NCBI GenBank assembly: GCA_947172415.1
Contig: OX359190.1
Span: 4,216,001-4,280,000, forward strand
Reading direction: 5' to 3'
DNA length: 64,000 bases
Source of the DNA: Chondrosia reniformis
Lineage: Eukaryota; Porifera; Demospongiae; Chondrillida; Chondrillidae
The notes under the pieces: generated by a model
Database searches by the model: none
What the model was told of the DNA's origin: nothing
What the model saw: only the letters and a program-made list of their open reading frames with translations
Made by a program: the position numbers and the translations under genes
Shown: in pieces, positions 3,406-61,797 of the stretch
Numbering within the stretch: the first letter of the stretch is position 1
Layout: each line of letters starts with the position of its first letter

Positions 3406-3407
3406 CA

Positions 3408-5341
3408 ATTGGTGTAACTGCTAGCCGAGCATCAGTAGATACAACATGAGCCATGTTCTCATACTGAGCTAGCCCGGAGGAGAGTACTATGTAGTAGATT
3501 TTAAATTAAATACAATTAAACCAATTGGTGTAACTCCTAGCCGAGCCTCAGTAGATACAATATGAGTCATGTTCTCCTACTGAGCTAGCTTGGAGGATAG
3601 TTCTATGCAGTAGACATTATCTTAAATACAACTGAAACAAATGGTGTAACTTCTAGCCGGGCATCAGTAGATACAACATGAGCCATGTTCTCATACCGCG
3701 CTAGCTCGGAGGAAAGTACTATGAAGTAGACATTCACTTAAATACAATTAAAACAATTGGTGTAACTACTAGCCGAGCATTAGTGGATACATCATGAGCC
3801 ATGTTCTCATACCGACCTAGCATGGAGGAGAGTACTATGCAGTAGAGATTCACTTAAATACAAGTAAAACAATTGGTGTAACTGCTATCCGAGAATCAGT
3901 AGATACAACATAAGCCATGTTGTCATACGGAGCTAGCTTGGAGGATAGTTCTATGCATTAGACATTATCTTAAATACAACTAAAACAAATGGTGTAACTT
4001 CTAGCCGAGCATCAGTAGATACAACGTGAGCCATGTTCTCATACCGCGCTAGCTCGGAGGAAAGTACTATGAAGTAGACATTCACTTAAATACAATTAAA
4101 ACAATGGGTGTAATTGCTAGCCGAGCATTAGTGGATACATCATGAGCCATGTTCTCATACCGACCTAGCATGGAGGAGAGTACTATGCAGTAGAGATTCA
4201 CTTAAATACAAGTAAAACAATTGGTGTAACTGCTATCCGAGCATCAGTAGATACAACATGAGCCATGTTGTCATACGGAGCTAGCTAGGAGGAGAGTACT
4301 ATCTAGTAGACATTCAATTAAATACAATTAAAACAAATAGTTTAACTGCCAGCCGAGCATCAGTAGATACAACATGAGCCATGTTCTCATACTGAGCTAG
4401 CTTGGAGTAGAGTACTATGCAGTAGACATTCACTTAAATACAATTAAAACGATTGCTGTAACTGCTAACTGAGCATCAGTAGATACAACTTGAGCCATGT
4501 TCTCATACTGAACTAGCTAGGAGGAGAGTACTATGCAGTAGACATTCAATTAAATAAAATTATAACAATTGATGTAACTGCTGGCCCAGTATCAGTAGAT
4601 ACAACATGAGCAATGTTCTCATACTGAGCTAGTTTGGAGGAGAGTACTCTGCAGTAGACATTCACGTATATACAATTAAAACAATTGGTGTAACTGCTAA
4701 CCGATAATCAGTAGATACAACATGAGCCATGTTGTCATACTGAGTTAGCTTGGAGGAGAGTACTATCTAGTAGACATTCAATTAAATACAATTAAAACAA
4801 TTGGTGTAACTGCTAGCCGAGCATCAGTAGATACAACATGAGCCATGTTCTCACACTGAGCTAGCTCGGAGGAGAGTACTATCTAGTAGACATTCAATTA
4901 AATACATTTAAAACAATTGGTGTAACTGCTAGCTGAGCATCACTAGATACGATATGAGTCATGTTCTCCTACTGAGCTAGCTTGGAGGATAGTTCTATGT
5001 AGTAGACATTATCTTAAATACAACTAAAACAAATGGTGTAACTTCTAGCCGAGCATCAGTAGATACAACATGAGCCATGTTCTCATACCGCGCTAGCTCG
5101 GAGGAGAGTACTATGAAGTAGACATTCACTTAAATACAATTAAAACAATTGGTGTAACTGCTAGCCGAGCATTAGTGGATACATCATGAGCCATGTTCTC
5201 ATACCGACCTAGCATGCAGGAAAGTACTATGCAGTAGAGATTCACTTAAATACAAGTAAAACAATTGGTGTAACTGCTATCCGAGAATCAGTAGATACAA
5301 CATAAGCCATGTTGTCATACGGAGCTAGCTTGGAGGAGAGT
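3408..5341. repeat. ~117-bp satellite array, right block, with trimeric higher-order units
   Basis: About 16.5 copies of the same unit as 1-1083. Three subtypes occur in fixed order: a unit with GACATTATCTTAAATACAAC, a unit with GCATTAGTGGATACATCATG, and a unit with AGAGATTCACTTAAATACAA. This triplet starts near 3592, 3944 and 4984. The block ends abruptly at about 5341, where piggyBac coding sequence starts. Confidence 0.93.
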
Positions 5342-6762
5342 ACAGTGCCATCCTTATTCTTTCTTACTACTGTGGCTGAGGAGGATGGGTCCGTAAGTGT
5401 ATTAACAAAGGGAACACATTTCTTGTCCATCCACAATAGGCACTGTACATCTGTGCCATTTGGTGTCTGGACAATTACAGAATGGCTTTTTCTCCAAGAC
5501 ATAGTGTCCTTCAATTCTTTAACGTTTAAATCTTTTGGCCACTGCTTCCTTTTTGTTTGTGTTGTAGCGACACAGTAGGTGTTGTGAGAAGACAAGAAAG
5601 ATAATAATTCTACACTAGAAAAATAATTGTCAAAGAAGAGGTTGTAATTCCTGTCTAAAAAGGGCTGAGCAAGTGTTTTTACCACTTGCCCACCAAGACC
5701 GTATTCTGGGGAACTACCCTGTGCACCAGTGTACACCTGAAAATTAGAAATGTAGCCATTTGCAGAGTCACACAGGGTCCACACTTTGAAGCCCCTTTTT
5801 GTGGGCTTCAATGGAATGTACTGCTTCAGGCTACTCCGCCCTTTGAAAGCCACCATGGCTTCATCTATGCTACAATTCTGACTAGGGTTGTATGTGTGAA
5901 GGCAATTTTGGTTAACTATTTTAAGTAATGGGCGTACTTTATGAAGACGATCAAAACCAGGCTGGTCCCTACCTACTGCAGTGGTGTTGTCGTTTATGTG
6001 GAGGCTGCTATGTATAGCTCGAAATCTTTTATACGACATGCCAGCAGTTATTCCTAGTACACCTAAAAGAGGATCAGTAGACCAGTAGTCTTCTAAAGAT
6101 GGCAATTGGTGTATTCCCATAGCAATTAACATGCCAAGGAATAGACCAAGTTCCTCTTCATTAGTGTTGTACCATTTGTAACTGTCACTGGGAGGTTTTT
6201 GGGAGGCATATAGATTGGTCTGCTGAGCAATATTTGCAATAGTCTGCTTTCCAAATATCAGACTAAAGTAATGTAAAGGTGTTGAATTTAGAGGTTGACC
6301 TGTAGCAGCACCTACTTGCTGTGTGAATTGGCGACTGTTGCTGGATAACGGAATTTGGGCCAAAGGTGCAGCATTATGGGATGTGGATGGGATTGCACTG
6401 GTATCTTCGTCAGCAATAGAAGAAGTATCTGCAGTGAGCAGCCGAGACTGAGGATTAGCAGAATGGTGAATTGGTGTAGATGTTGATTGACATTGGTGGT
6501 CATTGTTTGCTTGTGGGGACTGAGGGCATAACAAAGTGTCTTGGTTAGAGCCTGTGGATATATTGGCAGTGAAATCACATTGCTGTGCTTCCTCAAGTGC
6601 ATCTAATTCAGTACTTCTAGCAATGAAGTGATCTAGTGGTTCATCATCCTCACTGTCCATACAGCTCAAATCAGATTTCTCCCAGTCAGAATCATTGTCA
6701 TCAACATCCAGTTCTCTAACCATACCACTGACATTTAGCTTTTTGTTACTCTTCACTGACAT
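5242..6762 (-). pseudogene. piggyBac-type transposase, C-terminus replaced by satellite
   Basis: 506 codons. An acidic Ser/Asp-rich N-terminus (about 1-160) is typical of piggyBac proteins. The DDE_Tnp_1_7 core follows, with LGLFLGMLIAMGIHQLPSLE, CSIDEAMVAFKG (Asp 300), LFFDNYFSS (Asp 378) and LLWMDKKCV (Asp 446), so all three catalytic Asp are present. From about residue 474 the reading frame enters the satellite, and the last ~33 residues translate repeat DNA. The missing part would hold the rest of the core and the C-terminal Cys-rich zinc domain. The ATG at 6762 fits the acidic start. The enzyme would cut TTAA sites, but this copy lacks its 3' part and second TIR. Confidence 0.92.
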
Positions 6763-7109
6763 TCTGAGCTACAGTCATGCATGATACATGTATATTGTTA
6801 TTCAGTTAGTTTATTTATTAAAATTTACCTCAATTTCGATTGGAAATACTACAGAAACGTCTTCTATGGTGAAAGAGGTAAGTTTATAAGACTTTCGAGG
6901 TATAAAACAAGTCAATCGTGTTCTAAATATAGAAAAATTGCCGCCAAAATCTTCCTTTTACGAAGGATTATAACGAACGTTTACGAAGGTCTTTTATCAA
7001 AAGGTTTGTATACTTACACAGCTTTTTTATTCCTCTTTCGTTTGCCGTATATACCGTAAACATAAGTGTCTTTTAAAGCCGTCAAAAAACGTTTTCCGTA
7101 GGAGGTATT

Positions 7110-10152: not shown

Positions 10153-10194
10153 GTATGCAGACTAAAGACAACATATGTTAGCTACCGAAAACGA

Positions 10195-11595
10195 TTGCAT
10201 ACCCATTTTCTTTATATTTCAAAAAGTCGCTTTCATCGACTTTCATGTCTGGCTTTGCTTCTACTGTTACTCCTCTTATGTGGAGATGTTGAAGTCAATC
10301 CAGGCCCTACCACCAGTAAAGAAAGGCAGGCTAATAAAGAATTGGATGCAGGTTTAATTCAAGATACCTCCAAAGAACAACAAAAGCGAGAAGACACCTA
10401 TAAACAGTTAAGCTCCATAGAATCTAGTGGTAAACAAAGTATGCAAAGTTATTGCATCTCAATTGAATCACCCTTGCCAATTGAAATTGAACAGCAGTAC
10501 ACAATGGACATTGACAAGCACCGACAGGCAAAGAAAAGATTACCAATTAATGAGACAGAAAAACGTGAGCAGCAGTTAAGCAAAAATAGGACTTTGTCTC
10601 GAGCAAGATTCACAGCTGAAAAAAGTGAGCAACGACAACAGAGACTTCTGAGATCACGTGTTAATCAGGCTAGAAGACTGAAGGAGGAAGATGAGACAGC
10701 AAGGCAAGCACGATTGGAAATCTTGAAATTTAGTGCCAGGCAAAAACTTAAGAACGAAGATGACAAAGCAAGGCAAATGCGTTTGGAAGTCTTAAAGTTT
10801 AATGCCAGCCACAGACTGAATAAGGAAAATGAGACAGCAAGGCAAGCACGATTGCAAGTCTTAAAGTGTAATACCAGCCAGAGACTGAAGAACGAAGATA
10901 AGACAGCAAGGCAAGCACGGTTGCAAGTCTTAAAGTGTAATGCCAGCCAGAGACTGAAGAACGAAGGTAAGACAGCAAGGCAAGCACGATTGCAAGTCTT
11001 AAAGTGTAATGCCAGCCAGAGAGTGAAGAAGGAAGATGAGACAGCAAGGCAAGCACGATTGGAAGCCATTAGACGAAATTACAGAGAAAAAGTGGACAAA
11101 GAGGATGAGGCAAGCCGTGACAAAAGACTTCAGACTAAAGCAATGAATGTTCGACGGTACCGTGCCAAACAAAGTCTTGCACAAAAGGAAAATTACCGCG
11201 AGAAGGCAAGGATGAGGATGCAAACCATTCGCGGGAAACAAGCTACTTTAGCTGCTATGCAAGAACCATCCAGAAGGAAAGATGAAAAATTACAATTAAC
11301 TGATGACAATGAGGAAAGCACAAAGACAGATGGTGTGAAAATTCCTGACCCATCAATATCGGTGAATTCTATGGACACTAAGCAGTTGATCAAGGCAGAC
11401 ATCACCGAGAAGAAAAGAAAACATTCAGTACATCACAACAAACTACCTGAGCAAACAGAGCGAAGTTCAGAAAAGTGGCCTGTGAAGGCCCTTCTTGTGT
11501 ATGAACATCGTGTCATAAACTGTGCTATCAAATGCACGGAAAATTCTCAAAAGATGGCAATGAGTTTGTTGATTTTATTAAGTTGGAATCTCTAG
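10195..11595 (+). pseudogene. Helitron N-terminal segment: hydrophobic leader, 2A peptide and 23-residue repeats
   Basis: The frame begins without an ATG (TTG at 10195; open from 10153). An ATG at 10175 lies in the neighbouring frame, so an N-terminal frameshift or an upstream exon is likely. A run of eight Leu leads into CGDVEVNPGP (10279-10308), a match to the 2A consensus D-x-E-x-N-P-G-P, at which the ribosome skips a peptide bond between Gly and Pro. Further on come about six copies of a 23-residue unit containing TARQARLQVLK (10690-11100, 69-bp period), then a basic Tyr/Arg-rich stretch. Upstream hydrophobicity suggests a signal-like leader released by 2A. The frame shifts to the next segment at about 11540. 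Confidence 0.85.
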
Positions 11596-12563
11596 TGGAC
11601 GAAAAAACCTTGTTTTGCACCAGATGTATATCCTCTTTGAAGAAAAGAGAGATTCCAGGTAATGCTTTGGATAATAACATGCGAGTCTCTGCAGTCCCCA
11701 AGGAGTTGCAAGGACTCAACAGCTTAGAGGAACACTTAATTTCACGTGTTTCTCCTTTTATGAAGCTGGTAGTGCTACCACGTGGACGCCAGAGGGCAAT
11801 TAGGGATCAGGTCATCAACTTCCCCACCCCCATGACCAACATGGTAGACCAACTGCCACGTCCAGCTGAGGATACTGATATTGTATACGTGCAGCGTCCC
11901 AGTGAGTCAGAATGTGTGCCAGAGAGAGCAACTTCAGCCACAAGGACATACTACTGCTGTTGTTATAGAAACGTAATGCTAGCTTTGAATTGGCTGAAGG
12001 AAAATAATCCCATCTTCCATTATGTTAAGGTGGTTGACCCATCTGAGAAACAGTTTTCAGAGGAAGGTGACGAATGTCAGGCAGACCATGTTGAGGAGTC
12101 GGGTGTTGTGAGGAGCAACACATTGATACCTGACATACCCGTGTCCAAACTCATCCAGGATGGAGTATTTCCTGTTCATCAGTTGGAAAGAATTTCCTCA
12201 GCACCTGTGAGTGTTTTCAATGAACCTCAACTGGAGCTAATGGCATTCCCAACTTTGTATCCCAATGGAAGAAATGGTTTTGGAACACATAGGAATGCCA
12301 AACTCTCTCCCCTGGACTACTTTCAAACCCGTGTCATGAGTAGTGATGCTAGATGGGCACGGCATCCATCTTACCTCTTTTGGGCTTGTAATATTGTAGA
12401 AGCATACAAGCTGCAAAGTAGCATTTCTATTGCTCTATGTCTGAGGAATCCAGTAACTCAGAATATGAACACCAATAAAGACAAAGATAAACATGAAGAA
12501 AGCAAGGAACATTATCTCACAACTGAAGGGATCATCGGCAAAAGAAAATCCAGATGTACGTGA
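11532..12563 (+). pseudogene. Helitron DUF6570 and Helitron-like N domain
   Basis: Opens with FCTRCISSLKKREIPGNA and LNSLEEHLISRVSPFMKLVV, the DUF6570 pattern found N-terminal to Rep in animal Helitrons. It then has LELMAFPTLYPNGRNGFG and FQTRVMSSDARWARHPSYLF, the start of the Helitron-like N domain. The frame ends at a TGA at 12561. The homologous reading continues in another frame at 12580 (MRDIRGAAAY, a stop, then QSANIHLFTMLRSLGPP). Start and end are therefore products of frameshifts, not real boundaries. Confidence 0.85.
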
Positions 12564-12579
12564 AAACTGCTACAGTTTC

Positions 12580-13500
12580 ATGAGGGATATTCGTGGTGCT
12601 GCAGCCTACTAGCAGTCAGCAAATATCCATCTGTTCACAATGTTGCGTTCCCTTGGACCTCCAACATTCTTCATCACATTCAGTGCAGATGACCATCACT
12701 GGAAAGATCTCATGGTGGTTTTAGCCAACTGCAGTGGACGGAACCTGACTGAGGAGCAGGTGGACCTACTAACTGATGAAGAGAGGAGAGACTTTATGGC
12801 CAGTAATCCTGTGGTTACTGCTCGCCATTTCGCGTCGCTTCCAATGTCTGGTGAAAGAAGTCATTAAAGGTTCAGGAAAGCCAATTGGAGAAGTGATTGA
12901 TTTCTTCTGGAGAATTGAGTTTCAGTTGCGAGGATCACCACATGTTCATTCCTTGTGGTGGATTAAAGATGCTCCAGACTTGGACACCAAGGAACGTAGC
13001 CAGTCAGCTCCTGAGTTCATTGATAGGTACATATCCGTTCAAGTCCCAGATGAGGGCTGTGGAAAGGATGAACTCAGATCAACCATCCTTCGGGTCCAGC
13101 AGCACAAGCATACTACTACTTGCCAGAAGACCAGCAAAAAGAAGAAAGAGTGTTGTTTCGACTTTCCCAGACCTTTGTCATGTGAAACACGCCTGAAGAA
13201 CAATAACGATGTAGGAAACAAGTCACGCTTTTACCTTCTTTAGCGGAACAAAGGGGAAGAAAATATCAATGCTTACAACATTCATCTGCTCCTTGCATGG
13301 CAGGCCAATATGGACATACAGTTAATTGGATCAGTTTATGGTACTGCATCGTACATTTGTTCTTACATGTGCAAGGGAGAAAGTGAAGAAGTGAAGAAGG
13401 CCATCAGAGATGCTCTCAACACTATACCTGCTAATGCTTCAATTTGCAAAAAAACTATCCAAAGTAGGCATTATTATGCTGTCACATCGAGAGCTTAGTG
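12580..13500 (+). pseudogene. Helitron Rep nuclease (HUH and two-Tyr) fragments
   Basis: Two frames combine: 12640-12867 with SLGPPTFFITFSADD, and 12776-13243 continuing with FFWRIEFQLRGSPHVHSLWW, the HUH metal-binding motif (H-V-H). After a stop at 13243 the frame continues to YGTASYICSYMCKGE (about 13337-13380), which carries the paired catalytic Tyr spaced Y-x3-Y followed by Lys. These residues nick DNA and hold the 5' end during rolling-circle transfer. All key residues are visible but the reading frame is broken three times. Confidence 0.85.
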
Positions 13501-14291
13501 CCCAAGAGGCTGCCTACAGACTTTGCAATTTGCCACAGAAGGAGTCGACTAGGAAAGTTGTGTTTGTTAACACCGTCAGAATTGAAAAACGAACACGACT
13601 TCTCAAGAGCCGAGCTGAACTATTTGAACTGGGAGATCACGACACTGCCATCTTTCAACCAGGTTTGTTTGATAGGTATGGTGCAAGGCCAAAGGGAGAT
13701 GACTTTGAAGAAATGACTCTGGCTTACTTTTCTGTGTGGTATGATACTACACCAAGGGAAGACAGTCGTAAAAGAGACGACTATACAGGACCTGGACGGC
13801 AATCACAACCTCGATACAAGTTGCAAGACAATATGGGTTGGATCAAGTTAAGGACCAAACAGGCATGTCTACGTACTCCGGTGATGACGCCCTCAAGCCA
13901 TGGTGATGACTACTACTATAGTCTCATGTTACTGTACATTCCATGGAGGCAAGAAAAGGCTGACTTGCTCCAAAACCCTGAAACCGCCGTGGCTGCTTTC
14001 ATTGCTTGTGAAAGTGAACTTAAAGTCCTCAATGCTCAACATGAAGCATTTGCAGAGGAAGTACAGCGAGCAGTGCAACAGCTACAGGCTGTAAAGGATG
14101 CCGCATACATGGATCTTGTGGCTCCTAATGTGCAACACGGAGAAAGAGAAGATGCCAAGCATCCAACGGAGGAGGCTGATGGAGGACTGTACAATGGAGA
14201 AAATTTTATATCACAAGAGAATATGGAAGACTTGGCAGATGTAGCACCTACATTGCTGGAGGATTATGATGCCAGTGGTGCCATCTCTTGA
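13410..14291 (+). pseudogene. Helitron Rep-helicase linker region
   Basis: Begins at RELSAQEAAYRLCNLP, the conserved Helitron block after the Tyr motif, and runs through FVNTVRIEKRTRLLKSRAEL and a long charged linker. It then has LRTPVMTPSSHGDDYYYSLM, the usual lead-in to the helicase half. The first ~25 residues belong to a shadow frame; homology starts near 13485. It ends at a TGA at 14289, beyond which helicase sequence follows in the same direction (SRLTKKAFRELILSLNAKQR). Confidence 0.8.
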
Positions 14292-15170
14292 TCTCGCCTC
14301 ACCAAGAAAGCATTTAGGGAGCTCATTCTGAGCCTAAATGCAAAACAGAGAGAGGCATTCGAGATTGTTGTCAGGTATACGGCAGAACTACATAAATACC
14401 ATATGGGAACAGTATCATCTCCTCCAGAATGCTTCCACCTGTTCATTACAGGTGGGGCTGGAACAGGAAAATCACACTTGATCCATGCCATCAGGGAGCA
14501 TATAGAAAGATCAGTGCAGGGAAGCAAGGATTTCCATGGATGCATGGTCATGGCACCTACAGGAGTGGCTGCTTTTAACATCAATGGACTCACTATTCAT
14601 CGAGCACTGAGTCTGCAAGTGGAACATGGAAGGTCAGCGCATCAGTTGCATTTGAGTCCTTTGGCTCTCAATGAACTTTGACGACTTTGGAAAGGAGTTC
14701 ACACTATCATTGTAGACGAAATCAGCATGGTTTCTCATGAGGTACTCCTAGCTGTTAACCAAAGGCTTTGTGAGATCTTTGCTACGGATGATATTTTTGG
14801 AGGAGTTAATGTTATTGCTGTTGGGGATTTGTACCAACTGTCCCCTGTAAATGGACATAATATATTCAGCAGTGCAAAGGTGCAATCAAGGAGGCTTGCA
14901 TCCCATTTGTGGAAAGACTTCTTCAGTATGATATAATTGGAAGATAACATACGACAGCACAATGATAAGTCTTTCTCATCACTGCTGAATAGAATTCGAA
15001 TAGGAGACCACACTCAGGAAGACATTGCCATCCTAGCAACTCGCAAGACATCCAACAATCAAGTGGATCTTTCGGCCTAACCATTTCGCAATGAACTTAG
15101 ACTGTTCCCTCGGGTTTCTGACTGTGACCTCTATAATGACCAGGAGCTGCACAAACTGACTTCTGCAACA
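14292..15170 (+). pseudogene. Helitron PIF1-type helicase, N-terminal half
   Basis: The Walker A loop GGAGTGKSHLI lies at 14451-14482, followed by VMAPTGVAAFNINGLTIHRA. Walker B TIIVDEISMVS is near 14705 and VIAVGDLYQLSPV near 14815. Stops at about 14680, 14934 and 15078 interrupt the frame. In an intact Helitron this 5'-3' helicase unwinds the donor strand. Translation resumes downstream in the long 15171-16850 frame without a gap in homology. Confidence 0.85.
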
Positions 15171-16850
15171 GTGCAGTTGTTTGAAGCATCACATGTGATT
15201 TTGGAGAGTCACAGATGCACACATGGGGCAGTATCCTATGAGCATATACGAGAAGAACTCATTCCCAATGATGACAAAGAGTGTGGTGGCTTACCAAGGC
15301 GTTTGAAACTGGCTGTAGGGTCGGAAATTATGTTGAGAAGAAACATAAAATGTGGAGATGGACTTGTGAATGGTGCTCGAGGTATCATAGTAGGATTTAA
15401 ATGGCCAGGAAACGTAAAAAATCAACCAAGCCCAGGTGCACTACCTGAGTATGTTCCTATCAAATTTCATGATCCTCGAGTTGGACAACTAAACAAAGTT
15501 CCAATTGAAAATGGACACCAGGAAGTGGTTCCAATTGAACCAATGTCAGTCAGGTTCTATGGACGACAGGGTACTGTGCTTCAGAGAACACAGTTACCTC
15601 TCATTCTTTGTTGGGCTGCTACTCTACACAAGGTTCAAGGTCTGTCATTAGATGCAGCTGTGCTGGACCTGGGAGAAAAAGTGTTCGAACCAGGGATGGC
15701 ATATGTGGCCTTGAGTAGTGTTAGGACTCTAGATGGTGTGGCTCTATCAAGCTTTGAACCACAGAAGGTCAAGGCTAACAAACGAGTGCATGCAGAAATG
15801 GCCAGGTTACGGAAGAGAAGTGGTTCACATGATACATCAGACAATGAGTCACAAACATCCCACCTCTTGGTGCACAGTAGTTCCTCTCTATCCAACAAAC
15901 CCAATCAACCAATGACCAGTTCCGTTCCTGTCGTTGCTACACCAGTACCCTCAGTGCAGAGGAATTCTTCTCCACCCATCCAAACCAACTCGCCAACCAA
16001 ATCAGCCGCAGGTACACACATGCCTTTGGTGCAGAATAATTCTTCTTTAATAATCCAACCCAAGCCCCCAATCCTATCTGTTCCCCATGTTGCTTCACCA
16101 GTACTGTCACTTCAAGAAGAGTTAGAAACTATGGTGAACTGTGAAAATCCGGCTACTGATTTAATCAGCAATTGGGCAAAGTGTCATGAGGGTGATATTA
16201 CAGCTACTTTGATAGAAGTAAATCAGCCATCCCGTGCAATTCTCAGCAGCTTCCACAGTATAGATGTTGGCATGAGGGAAAAACTTTTACCTGCCTTTAG
16301 ATTGTTTTATGTTCCAGTGTACACTACAGGAAGTGGAAACTGCATGTACAACATGATTTCATTAACCCTTACTGGAACAGAGCAGTGCATGTCTCACTTG
16401 AGGTTGCTGACTGCCTACAGCCTCATTACACATAGAGAATATATGTTTGAAGTCATTCAACCAACTGCAAGAATTCTTCTACCCTTAAATGAACGAAGTG
16501 CAGCTTCAGTTTTTAAGGAAGAAGAAATTCAGTGGTTGGACCTCGTTCGCAATTCACTACAAAACGGATGCTGGGGGAATCAATTTCATTTACACGCCCT
16601 CTCTATTGCTTTGGAGAGGTCAATTTGCTTGTATGGAGTTATGCGTAACAGAACGGTTCAACATCAAGGCAGGCAGCTGCAACGCATTGATGTGACTACT
16701 TCAGCAGCTGAATTACAGAACCTCTTTGATGCTAAAGACAAGCGACTGAACAACAGCATTATTTACCATCCAAATGTGGAAAAATATTCCCCACTTTTAG
16801 GATTCTTTGATGCAAGCCACTTCACTGCTATTTTACCAGCAAATGCATAA
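15171..16850 (+). pseudogene. Helitron helicase C-terminal half plus OTU cysteine-protease domain
   Basis: 559 open codons. The first ~220 finish the PIF1 helicase: LKLAVGSEIMLRRNIKCGDG, ARGIIVGF, CWAATLHKVQGLSLDAAVLD and VALSSVRTLDG. A Ser/Pro-rich linker (about 225-320) follows. The last ~200 residues resemble an OTU protease: TGSGNCMYNMISLTLTG supplies the Cys in a G-x-G-N-C setting, and DASHFTAILP supplies the late His. The Asp usually at G-D-G-N-C is Ser here. OTU fusions are known in Helitrons of invertebrates and fish. Their role in transposition is not settled. No stop falls inside, but the segment has no start of its own. Confidence 0.85.
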
Positions 16851-31929: not shown

Positions 31930-32770
31930 CCTTTTTATCATGACTATTGTTTTTGTTGTTGTATCCATTTCTGCACCTGACGTGTAAAATCAGGTAACAT
32001 TTTGGAAAGTGGTGAGCGGATTAGATGACCAAACATTAGCTCAGCTGGGGCTACCCCAGTTGTCACATATGGCATGATCCTGCAATGAAACAGGAATCTG
32101 GAGAGTCTTGTCTGAAGTCAACCTTCCGTCATCTTGGATAGCTCATGCTTCACAGTTTGAACTGCCCTCTCAGTAAGTCCATTTGTTGCTGGATGATAGG
32201 GTGAAGATGTAACAAGCCTTATTCCATTCCTCTTAATAAACTGCTCAAATTCGGCAGTGGTAAAGCACGTGCCATTATCAGATACTAAAGTCTGTGGCAA
32301 TGCAGATCTTAATTTCTCTGTGGTGACCAACGATGTACTGGATTTACCGATATGAACCTCCTGCCATTTGGTGTGTGCATCGCTGATTACCAGAAGCATG
32401 TGGTTCAGAAAATGTCCTGCGTAGTCGAAATGAACTCTGGACCAAGGAGTTCTTGGCCAATCCCAGGGATGTAACGGTGCCTTTGGTGGTGCATTGCGAT
32501 CTTGCTGACATAACTTGCATGTCTGCACTGCACCCTCGATATCCTCATCCATTCTGGGTCACCAAACAAATTGTCTTGCCAGACTCTTCATTCTGGATGT
32601 CCCTGGATGGGTGTCATGTAACTCCTGCAAAACTCGAGCTCTCAAATGAGGCAGCATGACCTCTCTCCCTCCCCACAAAATGTAACCATCCTCCAAGCTT
32701 AGCTCTAATTTCCTGGCGTGGTATGATCGCAGTTCCTTTCTACTACCATCTTTTCCTGAGGACCACCCAG
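31930..32770 (-). pseudogene. Gypsy integrase
   Basis: Minus-strand reading: the zinc-binding H-H-C-C part is at 32660-32505 (LQELHDTHPGTSRMKSL, then CKLCQQ). The DDE core follows with VHFDYAGHF (Asp), LVSDNGTCFTTAEFEQF (Asp) and SSPYHPATNGLTERAVQ (Glu). All three acidic residues are present. A stop (32553, in the FVW-PRM region) separates the zinc finger from the open frame 32118-32552. The enzyme joins cDNA to host DNA and makes the 5-bp target duplication seen at the ends. Confidence 0.88.
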
Positions 32771-32780
32771 TTTGGACTAA

Positions 32781-33344
32781 TTACTTTACTTTTGCTAAAG
32801 TTGGATCTCTGGCTGTGCTCAGACGGAGTTGTTCTGCAGACATTGGAAGCGATGATAAATACTCCAAGAGTAACATAGTTTCAGATGGTACTGGAACTTC
32901 ATTAGGTGCTTCAGGCAATGGTAGACGACTCAGTGCATCTGCATTGGTTTGTTTCCTACCTGGACTGTAACTAACAGTGTAATTATAAGTACTGAGTAAA
33001 ACAGCCAATTTCTGAATTCTAGCTGAAGCCATGACTGGTGTCACCTTTGACTCACTGAATATCCTCAGTAGTGGTTTATGGTCAAAGCATATTGTGAAAA
33101 TTCGACCAAATACATATTGGTGGAATTTCTTAAAGCCAAAGATGATGGCTAGGGCCTCCTTATCTAACTGAGAGTAGTTCTTCTCAGCTGGTACCAAAGA
33201 TATGGATGCAAAAGTTATAGGCTGATCCTTTCCTTCTTCAGTGATGTACAATAAGACTTCTCCCACTCCATATGGAGAAGCATCACTTGACAGCAAGAGT
33301 GGAAGCTTATGATTGTAATGTACCAGCAATCCTGGAGACTGCAA
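32781..33344 (-). pseudogene. Gypsy RNase H domain
   Basis: 188 codons: LLLSSDASPYGVGEVLL (first catalytic Asp), FASISLVPAEKNYSQLDKEA (Glu of the ENYSQ-x-KEAL block), FTICFDHKPLLRIF (Asp) and GRKQTNADALSRLPLP (late Asp). This is the standard Ty3/Gypsy RNase H order between RT and integrase. The domain is open, while its flanks carry stops. Confidence 0.88.
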
Positions 33345-33374
33345 TAGAGTTTTAACCCTTGAAAAAGCTTACTC

Positions 33375-34469
33375 TTAGGCTGCTTCCCATACCCATTTTG
33401 AGTCCTTTTGTAGAAGCTGATACAATGGGGCCAAAATATCTGCTAAATTTGGCAAAAACCTGCTATAGTAATTAGCTATGCCAAGAAAAGCATGCGGTTC
33501 TCCTACATTTATAGGTGCAGGAGCCTTAGCAATGGCCTTTACTTTAGACTCAGATAGCTGCAGCCCCTGCTTGGAAATACGATGGCCTAGATACTCCACT
33601 TCTGTCAAAAAAGGAGCATTTTTCTTCTTCAATCTCATTCCTGCCTTATTAAACCTGTCTAGGTTCCTGAGGTGGTCTGTCAAGTTAGCACCTGTAACTA
33701 AAATGTCATCCATGTAAACGCAGACATTAGGGATACCTTGCGTCAGGGACTCCATCTGAGGGACTCCTCTGAAACATTGCAAGGGCTGAGGCTACCCCAA
33801 AAGAAGACATTTTTCCTGAAATAGTCCCCGGTGTGTGTTCACACTGACATATTGCTGTGACCCCTCCTCTAATGTAACTTGCTGATAGGCATGGGAGAGG
33901 TCCAGCTTGGTGAAAGTTTCTCCTCCTGGCAGAGACGCAAACAGTTTGTCAATCCTGGGCAGTGGATAAACTTCCAACTTGGCAGCTTTATCAATGGCAA
34001 GTATATAGTCCCCACAAATTCTCACAGACCCATCTTTCTTCTGTATAGGGACAATGGAAGCCGCCCAGTCTTAATATGTAACTGGGACTAATACCTCATC
34101 CTTAAGTAACCGATCTAACTCATTGGAAAAGTTTTCCTGGATTTCCAGAGGAACTGGGCGGTCCTTAAAAAATCTAGGTTGGCTCTCCGGTGGAACATGC
34201 AACTTGGCCTCAGTTACTTTTAAGTGCCCTGGAGCAAATACTTTCTCATGACGTACCAGAATCTCTTGAAGACAAGTGGAGTGCTCCCTCATGACATTCA
34301 GGAATTTTGGCCAATCAAGTTTCAATTCCGTAAGCCAATTCCAACCCAACAAGCTAGGACCTGACCCCTTTACTACCAAGAAAGGTAAAACAGCATGTTG
34401 GTTAAGAACCTCTACACTCATCATCAGACTTCCCGGCACTGGTATGGTCTGACCTGTGTAAGTCTTCAA
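33375..34469 (-). pseudogene. Gypsy reverse transcriptase
   Basis: Three frames join: 34469-34071 (LLGWNWLTELKLDWPKF, FKDRPVPLEIQENF), 34025-33792 (RICGDYILAIDKAAKLEVYP, FTKLDLSHAYQQ with the first Asp), and 33782-33375 (IPNVCVYMDDILVTG with the Asp pair; YLGHRISKQGLQLSESKVKA; FLGIANYYSRFLPNLADI). Stops at 34071 and 33792 and a missing stretch around the LPFG block show decay. The catalytic Asp residues themselves are intact. Confidence 0.9.
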
Positions 34470-34496
34470 ACCTGTCCCATTCGCTGGTTTGAGATA

Positions 34497-34751
34497 TTAC
34501 AGATTCGTACCAAGGAGACGAAGGGTGTCCTCACTAATTATTGAGACTGCTGCTCCTGATTCAATCTCCATGACCACTGCTTTGCTTGCTATTACTAGCT
34601 CTTTTACAATGGGGGGTGAAGATGACTGTCTTAACGAGTGTATTTTGACCGAAATTCTGGTTATTGGTCCATTGCACTCATGTGTGCCACCTCCCGCTAT
34701 CGATCTGGTTCCCCTGACAACTTTTGCTCCTAGTGCACCATCCTCTGACAC
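34497..34751 (-). pseudogene. Gypsy aspartic protease
   Basis: The 84-codon frame contains VVMEIESGAAVSIISEDTLR, where the active-site triplet D-S/T-G has become E-S-G, so the catalytic Asp is replaced by Glu. Placement between gag and RT is canonical. This alone would block Gag-Pol processing. Confidence 0.8.
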
Positions 34752-34789
34752 GCCTTTGCTATACGTCCCCTTTTACCTCAACTATGGCA

Positions 34790-35422
34790 TGTTTCATTCT
34801 TAAATCTGCATTTAGACGGGTGATGCTTGCCCTTACAGCGATAACAGATGGTACCGTTCGGTGTCTATATGTGGCTAACAGCTGAAATTGGGTCCTTGAT
34901 GGACTGAAGATCCTGAGCATCCTTTGAAGCTAATTCCATAGCTTGAGAAATGTCGGGAGTCTTCCTAAAGGTACATTTATGCTCTGCCAACAGCCTATGC
35001 TGTACCCTAGTGTCAGCAATTCTGCAAACTAGTCTATCTCCCAACATTTTATTGAGAGTGTCCTTGAAATCACAATGCTCTGCTATCTTCTGTAGCTCTA
35101 CCACATAAGTGTAAATCGATTCGCCAACTTGCTGATGTCGGGAGTTAAATTTGAAGCGTTGGATAATCACTGACCATTTTGGGTTAGTATAATCCCGTAA
35201 CTGTTTGATTATGTCTTGCAGTCCACGACTGTGACCTTCTGTGGTGCCACAAGACTCCTGATTAAGGCATACGTACTTGCTCCACAGCAGACGGGCACGT
35301 TTCTTGCCTTCCGTGGTTATCTCATTAGCCAAAAAATACTGCTCTACGCGTTCTACGTAAACTGTCCACTCCTCAGAATCAGAATGAAATTCTCCTATGG
35401 AACCATGGGTCACTGTAGCCAT
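34790..35422 (-). pseudogene. Gypsy gag with zinc knuckle
   Basis: ATG at 35422: MATVTHGSIGEFHSDSEEWT, YVERVEQYFLANEI, VIIQRFKFNSRHQQVGESIY, DTLNKMLGDRLVCRI. A TAG at about 34865 interrupts it, then CYRCKGKHHPSKC forms a C-x2-C-x4-H-x4-C nucleic-acid-binding knuckle. It packages the element RNA. The start lies about 24 bp beyond the internal edge of the 5' LTR. Confidence 0.85.
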
Positions 35423-35445
35423 GACACTGTATGCCCCGTCAACAA

Positions 35446-35660
35446 TCTAATAATTTCGTAGTAAATACCGCGAGGACTCGCCTAGAAGACACGTCACAAA
35501 ACAATGATCTACTTTGACAATAATGAACCACAACTATGATCATAATACAGTGCAGACACATACAAGACAAAATAAATGCAGAGTCAGCTGATACATTCAA
35601 CAAGTACACAAAACACTTAGCTAAGGTCACACACACTACCCTACATGTCAGTCTACTACA
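35446..35660 (-). repeat. Gypsy 5' LTR
   Basis: About 215 bp ending CTACTACA on the plus strand, next to GTTTG. The inner 130 bp match the other LTR with few differences. The terminal TG on the inner side is mutated (TCTAATAATTTCG instead of TGAAATAATTTCG). Confidence 0.8.
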
Positions 35661-39216: not shown

Positions 39217-40011
39217 TCACTGTATGACTTCATCTTCTTCATTATCATTACATGATGGCTGGCTACCTTGGTCTAAAGTCTTTAGTTTCCTCCTTTTTTC
39301 AGCACATACATCGTTTACAATCTTTGTGATGGCTTCCTCTGTTATTTCACTTACGTTTTTATAAAGCAGTAAAATGAAATCTGAAGAGTAGTATAGGATT
39401 AGGATAAAAGAGCACATCATGATATATTAGCTAGCAATATACAGATAGCTGCAAACCTTTGCATGCTCCAAGCTTGTTAGGATCAACAGCAACAAAAGCT
39501 GAGCCTTTCTTTCCTTTGGCAGAATGATCAGCCAGATATTCCACATCAAAAACTGTCTGTAGGAGTTTCCTAAAGCAGTACTTCCAGCTGTGGTTTTTGG
39601 ACAGTAGGTGTAATGTCTTGGCTGCATTCCTTCCAATGTGGATGCCAGAACCTTTTGAAATCTCCACCAGATCCAGTTGTGAGCTAGTAGTGGTCCCTTG
39701 ACTACTTCGTTCATTAGTTAATTCTTGTACTGTTTTTCCAGATTAAAAACCTTTTCAGTTAGCATATCAATTGTTGCAGTGAGTTTTAAGTATTGAGTGT
39801 AGTTAAGGGACCATCCTAATCGATCTGGTGACTGCATGTGGTTCAATGGCATTGTTGTAAGAGTACTTCTCTGATACAGGTCTTGGTTTCTTGGGTGGAC
39901 TTGGGGTGGTTGCATAGGTGGGGAGGTGAACTGGTAGCCATTGTAGGTTTGCCCAGTGTTTGTTATTGGTAGGTATCCTGCCAAATTGAAGCTGTTCTCA
40001 TTAGGTGTCAC
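39217..40011 (-). pseudogene. BEN-domain protein inside the EnSpm-like element
   Basis: Minus-strand frame 40011-39718: a Pro/Gln/Tyr-rich N-terminus and a short coiled coil (TATIDMLTEKVFNLEKQ). One missing base at about 39733 shifts to the frame QELTNERSSQG, LVEISKGSGIHIGRNAAKTL, LLQTVFDVEYLADHSAKGKK, AFVAVDPNKLGACKGL. This matches the four-helix BEN domain (protein-DNA and chromatin contacts). After an apparent intron or break, VSEITEEAITKIVNDVCAEK closes it (39360-39217). No ATG marks the start; the frame remains open upstream into antisense of the transposase. It may be an accessory DNA-binding factor of the transposon or a captured host fragment. Confidence 0.65.
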
Positions 40012-40335
40012 TACAGATGATACCTGGATATTTCTCTCTGTCTCAGACCCTAAGCCAAATTGCGATAGTGAATGTTCCGATTGTGGTGAGAAGTTTGCAA
40101 ATGCTCCATACTTCCTACTACTTCCTCTTGAAGCTCAAATACAGCGAAAATTTGACCAGAAAAAATTTGAAAAAAGGGAGTTAATTGCACTGAGCTGTGC
40201 AAAGGCTAGGATGATAAGCAAAAGTATTCACTGGAAGATATTACGCCTAACCAGCCAAGGGACCGAAGTCCTATTAAAAATGGCAACCAGTGATCGCCTC
40301 CCAGTCATCCAAGATGGAAAAAAATTCATCAAAGA

Positions 40336-40380
40336 ACCACAGACAGCTGTTTCGCCCTCATTTGGGCTCATCAGTGTGGT
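40336..40380 (-). ncRNA. hammerhead ribozyme type I (complete, minus strand)
   Basis: Read on the minus strand: stem I ACCACA (40380-40375), CTGATGA (40374-40368), stem II GCCC-AAATGA-GGGC (40367-40354), GAAA (40353-40350), stem III C-AGCT-G closed by A-U (to 40343), cleavage site GTC (between 40342 and 40341), stem I TGTGGT (40341-40336). All universally conserved core bases and all three helices are present. The very short stem III is typical of retrozyme and PLE hammerheads. Confidence 0.9.
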
Positions 40381-40945
40381 ACACTTCAATGATGGCGAGT
40401 TGGATGACCGTCTTCACTTATTAATCAGCCACAAGTGAAACACTTGTGGTTTCATAATAAGCAAAGATAGAGGGCTGCAGTCTAAGCGAGACCGAGTGCT
40501 CACAATGAAAAAAGGGAGTTAATTGCACTGAGCTGTGCAAGGCTAGGATGATAAGCAAAAGTATTCACTGGAAGATATTACGCCAAACCAGCCAAGGGAC
40601 CGAAGTCTAAGAAACAGCTGTCTGTGGTTCTTTGATGAATTTTTTTCCATCTTGGATGACTGCGAGGCGATCACTGGTTGCCATTTTTAATAGGACTTCG
40701 GTCCCCCAGCCAAGATTAGACTTCGGTTCCTTGGCTGGTTTGGCGTAATATCTTCCAGTGAATACTTTTGCTTATCATCCTAGCCTTGCACAGCTCAGTG
40801 CAATTAACTCCCTTTTTTCATTGTGAGCACTCGGTCTCGCTTAGATTGCAGCCCTCCATCTTTGCTTATTATGAAACCACAAGTGTTTCACTTGTGGCTG
40901 ATTAATAAGTGAAGACGGTCATCCAACTCACCATCATTGAAGTGT

Positions 40946-40990
40946 ACCACACTGATGAGCCCAAATGAAGGCGAAACAGCTGTCTGTGGT
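40946..40990 (+). ncRNA. hammerhead ribozyme type I (plus strand, one stem II mismatch)
   Basis: ACCACA (40946-40951), CTGATGA (40952-40958), GCCC-AAATGA-AGGC with one C-A mismatch in stem II, GAAA (40973-40976), stem III with AGCT loop, GTC cleavage after 40984, TGTGGT (40985-40990). A second 3' half core (GAAACAGCTGTC) lies at 40611-40622 and marks the preceding unit junction. Confidence 0.88.
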
Positions 40991-42954
40991 TCTTTGATGA
41001 ATTTTTTTCCATCTTGGATGACTGGGAGGCGATCACTGGTTGCCATTTTTAATAGGACTTCGGTCCCCCAGCCAAGATTAGACTTCGGTTCCTTGGCTGG
41101 TTTGGCGTAATATCTTCCAGTGAATACTTTTTGCTTAACAGAAAAAATTTGTTTCTAACTTAGAGTATCGCTTTGAAAGATCTGTACACAGGGATTCATC
41201 AACTATTCAGGATATTTATGATGGATCAGTATATAAACGTTTAAGTGAAAATGAAGGCCCTCTTTCCTGCCCAAATAACCTTTCACTTACCGTGAATACT
41301 GATGGCGTAAAAATATTCAATTCTTCCAAGAGGTCCTTTTGGCCTGTTTATTTCATCATAAATGAGTTACCTCCTAAAATGCGATTTCGTCTGGAAAATA
41401 TGCTCATAGGAGGTGTCTGGTGTAGTTTTCAAAAGCCATTCATGTCGCTGTTTTTAAAAAGAATTTGTGAAGCTTTGAAGAATTTATGCCTTTTTGGAAT
41501 GCAAGTCCACTCACCACACTTCTCCAGTCCCTTCACAAGCAAAATAATGTTACTTTCTGGCACCTTTGATTTGCCTGCCAGAGCATCTGTACTAAACATG
41601 AAGCAATTTAATGCTTTTTATGCCTGTGTGAAGTGTACCCAACCAGGAAAGACCTATCATAGTGGTCCAAGAGCACATTCACATGTTTGGCCGTTCATCA
41701 AGAGTGATCCTACTGGACCAAAAAGAACTCATCAGCAGTTCATTGCCAATGGCATAGAAGCTTCCAGGTCTCACAATCACATCGCAGGAATTGTAGGTAT
41801 AACTCCACTTGCAATGGTTCACAGTTACAATGTGATTCAAGGAACAGCTATAGACCACATGCATGGAATATTCCTGGGAGTTATTAGGAACCTTCTCTCA
41901 TTATGGTTTCAATCTGACCACCACAAGGAACCTTATTATCTTGGTAAGAGTACCAACATCATCAGTCAACTACTCCTGTCCTCCAAGCCTCCATGTGAAT
42001 TTAGTCGGTGCCCCCGATCAATTAGTGAAAGGAAGGACTGGAAGGCTTCTGAGTATAGAATGTTCCTGCTCTATTACACGCCTATCCTAGAAGGTATCCT
42101 ACCATCAGTCTATTTTGAACATTTGGAGCTTTCAGTTCAAGCTATTTATATTCTGCTTAGTATGAATATTTCAGAGAATCAGATAACAGCAGCTGAGAGA
42201 TTTCTCACCAATTTTGTGCATAGATATGCAAATTTGTATGGCGAGCAGCATATGAACATGAATGTGCATAACCTCCTCCACTATGCTGATAGTGTCAGAG
42301 AGTTAGGTCCATTATGGACCACCTCATTGTTCCCGTTTGAGAGCTTTAATGGGCAAGTTCGTCGCTTCATCCATGGCACAAGAGGGATTGGAGAACAGGC
42401 AATCCAGTGTGTTCAGATAATGCAAAAAAATATCAAAGGGAAAAAGTGGAAGGAAATGAAACGATAATTTTGGGAGCAACTTTAGTGCATGAAATGACCA
42501 AAGATGAACAAGATGTAATCAAAGTTGTGCACTGCGATTGGAGTACTGCAACATGGGTTAAATTCTCAAGAATATGTCACAAAAATGTTAGTTATCATAG
42601 TGAATCATGGAATCAATCATCACATCATGATAATACTGTAGCCATGTATGCAACCAATCAGCAGAACATTAACTTTGGTCGCATAGTATCATTCATCCTT
42701 CAACATGGTCAACAGCCATCAAAAACATATGTAATGATCAGACCATTTACATTACAGACATCAGTTTTTTCTTCTATTACTCATATACATCGTATTTCAA
42801 CTGATGTACAAACTCTACATTGCATTCCAGTTTCTTCTATTTTAGCTAAATGTAGGGTCATTACTAACTGTAATCACAATTTTGTAGCCATTCCACTAGT
42901 TCACTTTGATGGCGACTAATATCAGCTTTATTCATTATAGGTACATTATTATAA

Positions 42955-54905: not shown

Positions 54906-54977
54906 GATGTTGTAGCTCAGTGGCAGAGCAACTGGTGGTCATAACCAGCTGTCCTGGGTTCAATTCCCAGCAATTGC
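54906..54977 (+). pseudogene. tRNA-like sequence, probable SINE head
   Basis: 72 nt fold like a tRNA: an A box TAGCTCAGTGGC, a 5-bp anticodon stem CTGGT/ACCAG, and a T arm CTGGG-TTCAATT-CCCAG with B box GGTTCAATTCC. The acceptor stem pairs only partly (two mismatches) and the anticodon loop lacks U33. It is therefore not a working tRNA gene but a tRNA-derived SINE promoter or decayed copy. Pol III boxes A and B are well kept. Confidence 0.6.
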
Positions 54978-55101
54978 TTCTTTCGTGTTTTTCCCTCCTA
55001 TTGATGTTGACTGATTATACTTGTGGTTTGATTATCACTTTGATTATTCATAGAACATTTCATTAAGTTTTAGGTGTGATGAGCATCAAGCTATCTCATC
55101 T

Positions 55102-59370: not shown

Positions 59371-60495
59371 TAACTGCGAGGGTTGGTAGAATCCGAAGAG
59401 GTCAAGGTCTTTTGAGACTAAACCTTGTGGAATCTGACTCTTGTGGTGTAGCCACTCTAACTGAGACTGTGGAAGAAGGTGTGCGAGTCCAGGTACAGGA
59501 GGAGCTCCACGAAGTTCAAGTTGGGGCTGAACAAAATAGTGAGCTGCCTACAAGCCCTGTTGAAACTCCCACACATGATCCTACCAGTTCTAGGACAAGT
59601 GGCAATGATCATTTGATGCAACTTTTAGGCAAAGCAAAAGATGTCTGTCTCCGAAAGAAACCTGGACATTTCTCTGATAGAAAACCCTGTGGGGTGGTGC
59701 GGTTCAACCATGTTAACACAGCACTGCTTCAGGAGTTCAATGATTGGGTGGAGAAAGAGTGCCAGGAAGGCCCTAAGTTGGCCTGGCACCTGAACTGCCT
59801 GGTCTACCTGTTGCTATGGCGGTGTGAGGAAAAAAACAAACGAATCACAGCCATGTAACCAGGGAAGGAAATTGGACAATCAGAAGGGTAGTGAGAGAGA
59901 GGAAGGTCATGTAAGTAACAGGAAGGCCAAGGACCTTAGGTTCAGAAGACTGCTTGCCTGGTTGGATGTGGAATTAGTGCATCAACAGAATAATAATCCT
60001 ATGACCAAACATCAGAAAGTACTCCGAAGGAATCTTAGGAGGGACTTCCATTCATTAAACCTGAATGTGCTGATCAGAGCTCGGGAACAGACACTGGGGA
60101 AACTCAGGGTCTGGACCCTACAAGAGCGAAGATCGGCTGAACGCAGGAAATTACAGAAACAAAACCACTTTTGGAATACACAAAAGAAGTTCAGGATGAA
60201 TGGCAATGTTCCAACCTCCAATGAAGCCCCCTCAATCGAGGTAGTAAGAGACTTTTGGCCAAAGATTGTAGGTAGTGTTGGTAAGGTCAACAATGAAGAC
60301 CCAGGGGTGGAAGAATGGCTAAAGGAAACCAAAAGGAGGGTGGGTAGAACCTCCTCTGAAGGTCCGGATAGCATTGATGAGACCAAACTGAGGAAAGCCT
60401 TGAAAAAGGCAAAAAGCTGGTCTGCCCTGGCTAGGACGGAATCCACACGTTTTGGTGGAAAGCACTCCTCTCTGTACAGTCTGCCTTGGTAGATA
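59360..60495 (+). pseudogene. LINE ORF linker and RT thumb-side N-region
   Basis: Two overlapping frames. 59340-59858 has VEEGVRVQVQEELHEVQVGA and PKLAWHLNCLVYLLLWRCEE. 59824-60492 has RRLLAWLDVELVHQQNNNPM, NVLIRAREQTLGKLRVWTLQ, VVRDFWPKIVG and WSALARTESTRFGGKHS. The last blocks are the conserved lead-in to the RT of this LINE type. A frameshift links the two. Confidence 0.75.
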
Positions 60496-60504
60496 CTACA
60501 GAGG

Positions 60505-61797
60505 GTGGTGAGTGGAGATCTGTCAGTCCCAGATTGGCTTACAAGGGGTCGTACTCTACTCATCCCCAAAAAGGGTGACTCAAAAAGTGCAGTCAACTAC
60601 CGACCTATTGCGTGCCTCAACACAATGTACAAGGCTGTCACAGCATACATTGCATCAGAACTACTCACTTATACCTACATTAATGATCTTTTGCCTATGC
60701 CCCAAAGGGCCATGAGGAAAGGGAGGTGGGGCTGTGTGGACTGTCTACTGCTGGTTCAAACAATCGGTCTAGATGCCAAAATTATGGGCAAGCCACTTAG
60801 TTTGCATGGATCGATTATGAGAAGGCATATGACAGAGTCCCTCACAAGTGGGTGATGAAGGTGCTAAAAACCATTAAGTGCACAGGTTGGATCAGGAGGT
60901 CTATAGAGCTCTTCTCCAAACACGGGGTTACTGTGCTTGAGTTGAGGACTGCAGGGAAGGTGGTTAGGAGCACCCCTGTTAAATATAACAGGGACTCTTC
61001 CAAGGGGACTCCTTATTGCCACTCCTCTTTTGTCTGGCCATAGCTCTCTATATCCCAAGTTCTTAACAGAACCAAGGGATATACCCTCTGGCATAATGGG
61101 GAAAGGAACACCATGTCACACTTGTTGTACATGGATGACCTTAAGATATATGCTGGAGGGCCCGATAAACTCAGGGAAGCAATGGAATGTGTAGAGAAAA
61201 CCTTAAATGTCATTGGCATGAGTGAGAAAGTGTGGAACAGCTCACATGCAAAAGGGGAAAGTTCTGGCTGGCCCAGACAACCCTGAACGCAGTGAAGAAT
61301 CCATAAGGAGCCTTGAAAAGGGTATTACTTATAAGTACCTAGGGCTAGAACAACTGTTTGAGGTAGATGACAGCAAGGTCAAAGCTTGCTTGATCAACGA
61401 ATTGAGGAGGAGACTCCACAAAGTGTGGGGCTCTCACCTCAATGGTAAGAATGCTGCAGAAGCCTCTAACATGTTGTGTGCCACTCTATTGAGATACTCC
61501 TACCCAGTTTTGAGGTGGACTCAAAGTGAGCTTTCAAAACTGGACCGAATGGTGAGAAAGATCATGAGAAAGTACCAGTGTCATCACTATAACTCTGCCA
61601 TTGAGAGAGTGAACTTGCCTCGCTCTCAAGGTGGTAGAGGGCTCTGTAGTTTTCCTTTGGATCATGACAGGGCTGTTGTGAATCTGGCAATATACCTCCA
61701 TACTGCCAAAGATCCACTCACAGCTGTTGTGGTTAAACACCAAAAGTGGCTGGAGTGCTCAAAGCAGAGGAGGACTGTCTTAAAAGAAAAAAATTGA
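60505..61797 (+). pseudogene. LINE reverse transcriptase
   Basis: LTRGRTLLIPKKGD and AVNYRPIACLNTMYKAVTAY (60540-60650). After a frameshift, AWIDYEKAYDRVPHKW (60803-60850, first catalytic Asp). Then RGLFQGD-like sequence interrupted by a frameshift near 61000, YMDDLKIYAGG (61130-61160, Asp pair) and RSLEKGITYKYLGLEQLFEV with LLRYSYPVLRWTQSELSKLD (frame 61222-61797). Catalytic residues are all present, but four or more frame breaks occur. Confidence 0.85.

Follow-up and report, generated by a model that had tools for sequence, protein, structure and literature searches.

Head-to-head retrozyme insertions with paired fixed ends in the genome of Chondrosia reniformis and their probable link to Penelope-like elements

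Retrozymes in the genome of the sponge Chondrosia reniformis bear a structural fingerprint of Penelope-like elements (PLEs), namely fixed paired ends, two arms arranged head-to-head, and a short tail on only one of the arms. The reading that accounts best for this signature, to which we assign a probability of roughly 0.8, is that PLE machinery copies a circular retrozyme RNA into two first-strand cDNAs, which begin at two sites named A and B. The element from which the analysis set out lies in a 64,000-nt stretch of DNA, hereafter the window, and is a metazoan-type non-LTR retrozyme with a 362-nt monomer, type I hammerheads, and no coding capacity. The element itself is an ordinary member of this group; what is new is the signature of its integration. 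All counts refer to one genome (117,379,552 bases in 15 contigs), and p-values assume independence of copies.

The insertion in the window

The window element is a single precise insertion of 969 bp (40170–41138) with a 13-bp target site duplication, CAGAAAAAATTTG, on either side (40157–40169 and 41139–41151), as found both by direct reading and by a tool. It interrupts a plus-strand tnp2/EnSpm transposase frame (39947–42467; Transposase_21, 3e-10), in which 39947–40169 joins 41152–42467; upon removal of the insert and one copy of the duplication, an open frame of 512 aa is restored, with the tnp2 domain in its right part (41139–42464). A genome search with the joined flanks revealed two empty sites, which are 100% identical to the query across the junction and support the left copy of the duplication: C12, matching query bases 186–599 (414 bp, 100%), and C7, matching query bases 186–410 (225 bp, 100%). 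Query bases 1–187 are located about 1.2 kb away in the C12 and C7 copies, with identities of 99% and 97%, so these copies are unlike the window further upstream. Since the empty copies are identical through the junction, the insertion is precise and probably young. The earlier note, made from the letters alone, had described a 969-bp insertion with a 13-bp duplication inside an EnSpm transposase gene, and the duplicated motif, the joined frame, and the two empty copies bear this out.

The insertion consists of two opposed arms. The left arm (40170–40610, minus strand) covers 1.2 turns of the 362-nt circle and has its outer 3' end at site B, with the tail, while the right arm (40611–41138, plus strand) covers 1.5 turns and ends at site A, without the tail. 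The inverted parts 40259–40610 and 40716–41067 are 99% complementary, and a full 362-nt monomer between two cleavage points (40623–40984, plus strand) is the reference for family M. The tail hairpin, TTGCACAGCTCAGTGCAATTAACTCCC, is found in the first turn of the left arm (40176–40202, minus strand), with further copies at 40514–40540 (minus strand) and 40786–40812 (plus strand).

The turns within this insertion are not identical: direct reading showed that 24 nt are missing from the first turn of the left arm, between two TTCG hairpins (GACTTCGGT repeats), and that this turn carries AAA where the second turn of the left arm and the right arm carry AA. A 34-base pattern with the AA form has two matches genome-wide, one in each arm of the window element. 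Of 646 sites compared between the two arms, 11 differ, while the 414-bp flank is identical to that of the empty copy; some of the differences may therefore be due to copying itself or to a second template molecule.

A complete type I hammerhead is present on the minus strand (40336–40380) with an Rfam score of 34.6 bits (cut-off 34, E 6.9e-5), and its cleavage is presumed, from the GUC rule, to occur after position 40342. The plus-strand type I hammerhead at 40946–40990, as judged by its fold, has one broken stem-II pair and scores 30.2 bits, below the cut-off. A 3' half core lies at 40611, with a spacing of 362 bp (40611/40973), and the plus-strand cleavage points are likewise 362 bp apart. 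The assignments of the earlier note were thus upheld for the complete hammerhead, the nearly perfect one, the half core, and the spacing of the two cleavage sites. In the whole genome, at least 73 Rfam hammerhead matches were scored, 51 of them above the cut-off, this list being a lower bound that does not include the window's own hammerhead. Among 14 control genomes, sub-threshold hammerhead matches were found in 11 and matches above the cut-off in none. The hammerheads are presumed to cleave themselves and the monomers to form circular RNA. Searching for a hammerhead motif with an incorrect loop length gave three matches, none at a mapped retrozyme copy of either family described below.

Two families with fixed ends

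Two retrozyme families, M (362 nt) and F (354 nt), were distinguished, which have in common only the hammerhead and a 36-nt piece (BLAST, E below 0.01). Their G+C contents are 44.2% and 45.2%, and the longest stretches without a stop codon correspond to 81 aa in M and 57 aa in F, in agreement with the initial view that the element has a retrozyme layout of tandem turns of a hammerhead-bearing monomer and no coding capacity. A DNA search with the window element gave at least 173 matches, 40 of 1253 candidates having been scored. The tail motif of M, allowing up to three mismatches, occurs 232 times (115 + 117) and that of F 344 times (163 + 181), the reversed control giving zero in both cases; the locations available are the first 100 or so of each among the matches listed.

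Seventy elements were mapped onto the circular reference. The M copies were the top matches of the DNA search with the window element; F and other copies came from the 30 highest-ranking hammerhead matches among the 73, with a few more from the tail search. Loci seen twice (L001–L008, L023, L029, L031, L032, L038, L079, and L081), duplicated segments (L037 and L065), clusters under 150 bp (thereby L085 and L087), and L091–L092, which were fetched later, were left out. Since the query that selected the M copies was itself two-armed, two-armed copies are favoured in the sample, while arm order and the pairing of ends are unaffected.

Two opposed arms were found in 44 of the 70 copies, and in all 44 the minus arm precedes the plus arm; the reverse order was never observed. 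The RNA 5' ends therefore face each other (head-to-head), with no tail-to-tail case. In the subsample selected solely on hammerhead score, two arms were present in 15 of 24 copies. The other 26 copies have one arm according to BLAST; a closer search detected a clear short opposite arm in five of them (p 0.005 or less) and possible ones in two more (p 0.03 and 0.05), the remainder having none. The two-orientation layout, initially called unusual, is instead common; the best explanation is that cDNA synthesis begins at two places on the RNA, rather than that an inverted dimer moves as such.

The outer arm ends fall mostly at two places on the circle: 103 of 114 lie at site A or site B, although the two zones together make up 13.6% of its length. 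In family M, A is located at about q155 (...TTTTGCTTATCAT) and B at about q198 (...CTCCCTTTTTTCAT); in family F, A is at about q140 (...TTAAATGATGATGA) and B at about q196 (...CCCTATTTTTTCCAT). The A-to-B interval, referred to as the tail, is about 43 nt in M and 56 nt in F, as compared with about 31 nt in the PLE copy of the window, and local folding predicts a hairpin between A and B in both families. Although BLAST (E below 0.01) relates M and F only through the hammerhead and the 36-nt piece, the arms of both families terminate at a pair of fixed sites next to a hairpin. Moreover, one end of each kind is as a rule used per insertion: among the 37 two-armed copies in which both ends could be classified, 35 are A/B or B/A, while one is A/A (L039) and one B/B (L011); the other seven of the 44 have an unclassified end. 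In the window element, the left end is B and the right end A. The ends are fixed across many targets, but the sharing of a few bases at the junctions (CAT at or near 45 of 102) means that short pairing with the target may contribute to the choice of start site. At the central junction, microhomology of at least 3 nt was found in 16 of 44 copies against 22% of 600 simulated junctions (p 0.02), which is a weak excess; microhomology of at least 1 nt (22/44 against 47% simulated) and gaps (12/44 against 13%) were also counted.

A target duplication of at least 9 bp surrounds both arms in 30 of the 44 two-armed copies. In 17 of the 30 it is absent elsewhere in the flanks and measures 9–15 bp, with a mode of 12–13 bp. 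The other 13, in which it recurs in the flanks, often as a 13-bp minisatellite, were set apart and may be due to chance, since this minisatellite (~TACTAGTTGTATG) hosts many copies and a 13-bp "duplication" can arise there by repetition. As a control, swapped flank pairs share at least 9 bp in about 4% of cases, whereas the own flanks do so in 39 of 72 mapped elements. Together with the empty sites, these counts, which the earlier note had suggested making, favour its view of a target-primed insertion. The minisatellite is a frequent landing site (flanks of L040, L044, L046, L047, L049, L053, L072, and others); its period equals the usual length of the target duplication, which could be a coincidence or not.

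Several observations on individual loci were made in addition. Five retrozyme tail matches lie on a single strand at C2:6927185–6978846 with a spacing of 12.3–13.8 kb; this array was considered as an autonomous partner with the same tail, but the one unit read proved to be a duplicated host segment that contains a retrozyme and has two frames, of 203 aa and 275 aa. Two tail matches chosen for their variant spelling were again two-armed retrozymes. At C8:2926550–2930200 (L064), a pair of two-armed retrozymes is found about 1 kb apart, and the flank of each matches the pLTR-ORF start of L088, a PLE family whose frames are long and open, over 83 bp (93% identity) in one case and 34 bp (100%) in the other, as if retrozymes landed in PLE ends.

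Template and inserting enzyme

A PLE copy in the window itself displays the same signature. It occupies 1096–3407 and, as read by eye, is flanked by a 12-bp duplication, ATTGGTGTAACT (1084–1095 and 3408–3419), within an array of a 116-bp satellite (1–1095 and 3408–5200) that it interrupts. Its left arm, an inverted pLTR (1096–1418, minus strand), carries a tail of about 31 nt (1096–1126), while its right arm, the pLTR at 3116–3407 (plus strand), has no tail; the inverted parts are 1127–1418 and 3116–3407. The plus-strand frame between them (1401–3092) was named by eye as a reverse transcriptase with a GIY-YIG-like end, and a Pfam search of this frame returned no match. Likewise, a minimal hammerhead-like core recognised by eye at 3310 had no match to the Rfam hammerhead models. 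Two further PLE insertions were read at both ends, one in C14 (A left, B right) and one in C11 (B left, A right), each with about 12–13 bp duplicated as judged by eye, so that all three PLE insertions read at both ends have the tail on one arm only. Among 13 pairs of neighbouring PLE frames within 4 kb, 12 are in (-,+) order, one is (++), and none is (+,-); this count is based on 77 of 78 matches listed (one short fragment was dropped), 77 of 1304 candidates having been scored.

Because PLE insertions of this genome share the two-end signature, the lender of the reverse transcriptase is most likely a PLE. The absence of a long frame in the monomer, and hence of a reverse transcriptase and GIY-YIG frame of its own, means that the retrozyme is not classed as a PLE; it also agrees with the earlier proposal that the enzyme must be borrowed. 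When four PLE stretches (the window PLE and three 5' regions) were compared with the retrozymes, none proved to carry their tail; the best match had E 0.34, and no partner PLE is named. In vitro, Poseidon_Ac, a PLE protein in purified form, cuts the two target strands and extends each of them, starting at two adjacent internal RNA sites, and the interval between them corresponds to the genomic tail (PMC11167929). Adineta PLEs have head-to-head pLTRs, one of them with a tail (PMC3846280).

As to the template, 81 arms extend as far as the hammerhead cleavage point, of which 78 continue for 10 nt or more beyond it and two stop within 6 nt of it; such read-through speaks against cleaved linear monomers, which would end there. 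Arms extend for up to 4.9 turns, and 37 of 103 are 0.85–1.25 turns long. Inner ends fall in the A–B start zone in 46 of 103 cases against 27% expected (p 6e-5). This enrichment and the near-one-turn arms are what a circle with a bound start complex would give. The two arms of an insertion are mutually closest, relative to the best other insertion, in only 5 of 32 cases, which made this comparison uninformative as a test for a single template, and pooled differences were used next. Differences amount to 2.0% between turns of one arm and, pooled over 25 insertions, to 2.7% between the arms of the same insertion, as against a median of 9.0% between different insertions, a value that partly reflects a divergent M subfamily; the closest 5% of pairs differ by 1.7% or less. 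Some arm pairs, including those of L015, L017, L036, and L071, are 8–14% apart. These arm pairs, the closest 5%, and the 5 of 32 weaken the case for a single template. The template would probably have been circular, and both cDNAs may have used one RNA simultaneously.

A linear multimeric transcript as template, which we regard as unlikely, would be enough to explain the multi-turn arms, and in vitro a PLE took unprocessed RNA without the need for ribozyme cleavage (PMC11167929). However, such a transcript should be cut by intact hammerheads, and it leaves aside that arm lengths peak at about one turn and inner ends cluster at the start zone, as if the cDNA met its own start complex. The similarity of the turns of one arm (2.0% against the median of 9.0% between insertions) also argues against it, though recent tandem genomic copies could match equally well.

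As to the enzyme, a LINE of the R2-, L1-, or RTE-like type, rather than a PLE, could in principle have inserted the retrozymes, the inverted arms resulting from ordinary twin priming; we consider this improbable. In L1 twin priming, the 5' part of the element is inverted and placed head-to-head with the rest, one target duplication encloses both parts, the template is a linear poly(A) RNA, the second start is variable, and a minority of insertions are affected. Head-to-head order and a single enclosing duplication are therefore expected under this explanation and are shared with the retrozymes, and the window contains a likely LINE relic, an RVT_1 match at 60493–60852 that scores 23.4 bits against a Pfam cut-off of 29.6. 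Of the relics the earlier note had reported in the window, the PLE copy is that at 1096–3407, and the LINE is likely but below threshold. Unlike the variable second start and poly(A) template of L1, both starts of the retrozymes are fixed (103/114) and A is paired with B (35/37). The very same signature is found in PLE copies of this genome, the elements with which the retrozymes were compared.

Fold-back self-priming on an antisense transcript was suggested in 2013 for PLEs, in which head-to-head copies with palindromic junctions occur (PMC3846280), and could also produce inverted arms. It predicts a common inner end, but only three of the 44 insertions have arms whose inner ends are 10 nt or less apart on the circle, and five have them within 25 nt, against 6.2 expected by chance, which makes this mechanism very doubtful here. 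The head-to-head ends of PLEs were once attributed to such self-priming (PMC3846280), and the unrelated inner ends of the 44 retrozyme insertions give no support to that view. Finally, inversion within an array of satellite DNA, insertion of one copy into another, or an error of assembly can practically be dismissed, since, although some copies lie within a minisatellite or duplicated segments, a single target duplication surrounds both arms, the empty sites are 100% identical, the orientation bias is 44 to 0, and the assembly was built from PacBio reads with a QV of 69.8 (PMC12181767).

Insertion by PLE machinery from two starts on a circular RNA could therefore be pictured as follows. Tandem genomic copies would be transcribed, the hammerheads would cut the transcript into 362-nt monomers, and ligation would yield circles, as in the published cycle. 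A PLE-type enzyme, proposed by analogy with the PLE copies, would cut the two target strands about 13 bp apart and extend each target 3' end on the RNA, one from A (~q155) and the other from B (~q198), with the hairpin tail between them. Each cDNA would cover a part of the circle, a single turn, or several turns before stopping; the two cDNA ends would then meet head to head and be sealed by end joining, and filling in of the staggered cut would generate the target duplication. The observations on which this picture draws are the precise insertion, the fixed A and B ends with one of each per insertion, the head-to-head order, the read-through of the cleavage point, the multi-turn arms, and the same signature in PLE copies.

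One could go further and hypothesise that A, the hairpin, and B form a single start signal read as one unit by the PLE complex, with A serving as the start for one target strand and B for the other on the circular RNA, so that both strands are first-strand cDNA, and that PLEs in general gain their head-to-head pLTRs and one-sided tails by such coordinated rolling-circle insertion with two starts. We would give this extension even odds. If it is true, there would be no separately primed second-strand synthesis across the whole element.

Relation to known retroelements and other features of the window

The metazoan non-LTR retrozymes described by Cervera and de la Pena (2020) have monomers of 170–400 nt with a type I hammerhead each and a G+C content given as below 45% in a legend and below 50% in the text (PMC7229834). 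The elements studied here resemble them in having a type I hammerhead per monomer, in the tandem arrangement of monomers whose 362 and 354 nt lie within that range, in their low G+C and lack of coding capacity, and in co-existing PLEs and target duplications longer than 4 bp, here 9–15 bp in 17 copies (PMC7229834). The head-to-head arms, the fixing of the 3' ends at two sites, and the pairing of A with B have no counterpart in the text consulted; the words "inverted", "head-to-head", "twin", and "opposite" have no occurrence in the main text of that paper. The combination of metazoan retrozymes with PLEs as candidate lenders is already in print (PMC7229834, PMC7761336, PMC11722881), and for the re-entry of retrozymes into DNA, PLEs or LINEs have been named as candidates only (PMC7229834, PMC7761336). 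In the open-access literature searched, no description of retrozymes with two arms, with fixed paired ends, or with PLE tails came to light.

With GIY-YIG PLEs, the retrozymes share head-to-head arms with the tail on one inverted arm (PMC3846280) and, on the reading favoured here, two adjacent internal RNA starts bounding an optional tail and the extension of both target strands (PMC11167929). Unlike PLEs, they encode no protein, are about 0.36 kb long, and have a tail sequence other than that of the four PLE stretches compared. Published PLE duplications are 8–10 bp long (PMC11167929, PMC3846280), as against about 12–13 bp in the PLE copies of this genome, and, relative to the published tail of 30–40 nt (PMC11167929, PMC3846280), that of family M measures about 43 nt and that of family F, at 56 nt, exceeds the range. 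Plant LTR retrozymes are likewise hammerhead-bounded repeats and are expressed as circular RNA, which is also presumed for the present elements; the plant elements differ in their type III hammerheads and 4-bp duplications, in possessing LTRs together with a PBS and a PPT, and in their Ty3/Gypsy lender (PMC7229834, PMC7761336). With its type I hammerhead and 13-bp duplication, the window element does not belong to that group.

The A/B signature is a structural fingerprint that links animal retrozymes to PLE-type insertion and can be checked in other sequenced animals. Moreover, a gene-free RNA of 362 nt offers a much smaller handle on the rules of the enzyme than a PLE itself.

The window contains several other features. 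A 508-aa open frame at 5242–6768 (minus strand) matches DDE_Tnp_1_7 (Pfam: Transposase IS4) with E 4e-75 and is presumably of piggyBac type. By eye, the broken frames at 10153–16850 (plus strand) have the look of a Helitron-type helicase element with an OTU-like part, and those at 32118–35446 (minus strand) look like Gypsy-like pol and gag. A histone 3' UTR stem-loop (35.1 bits) was detected at 8054–8008 on the minus strand, and a tRNA match (42.4 bits) at 54906–54978 on the plus strand.
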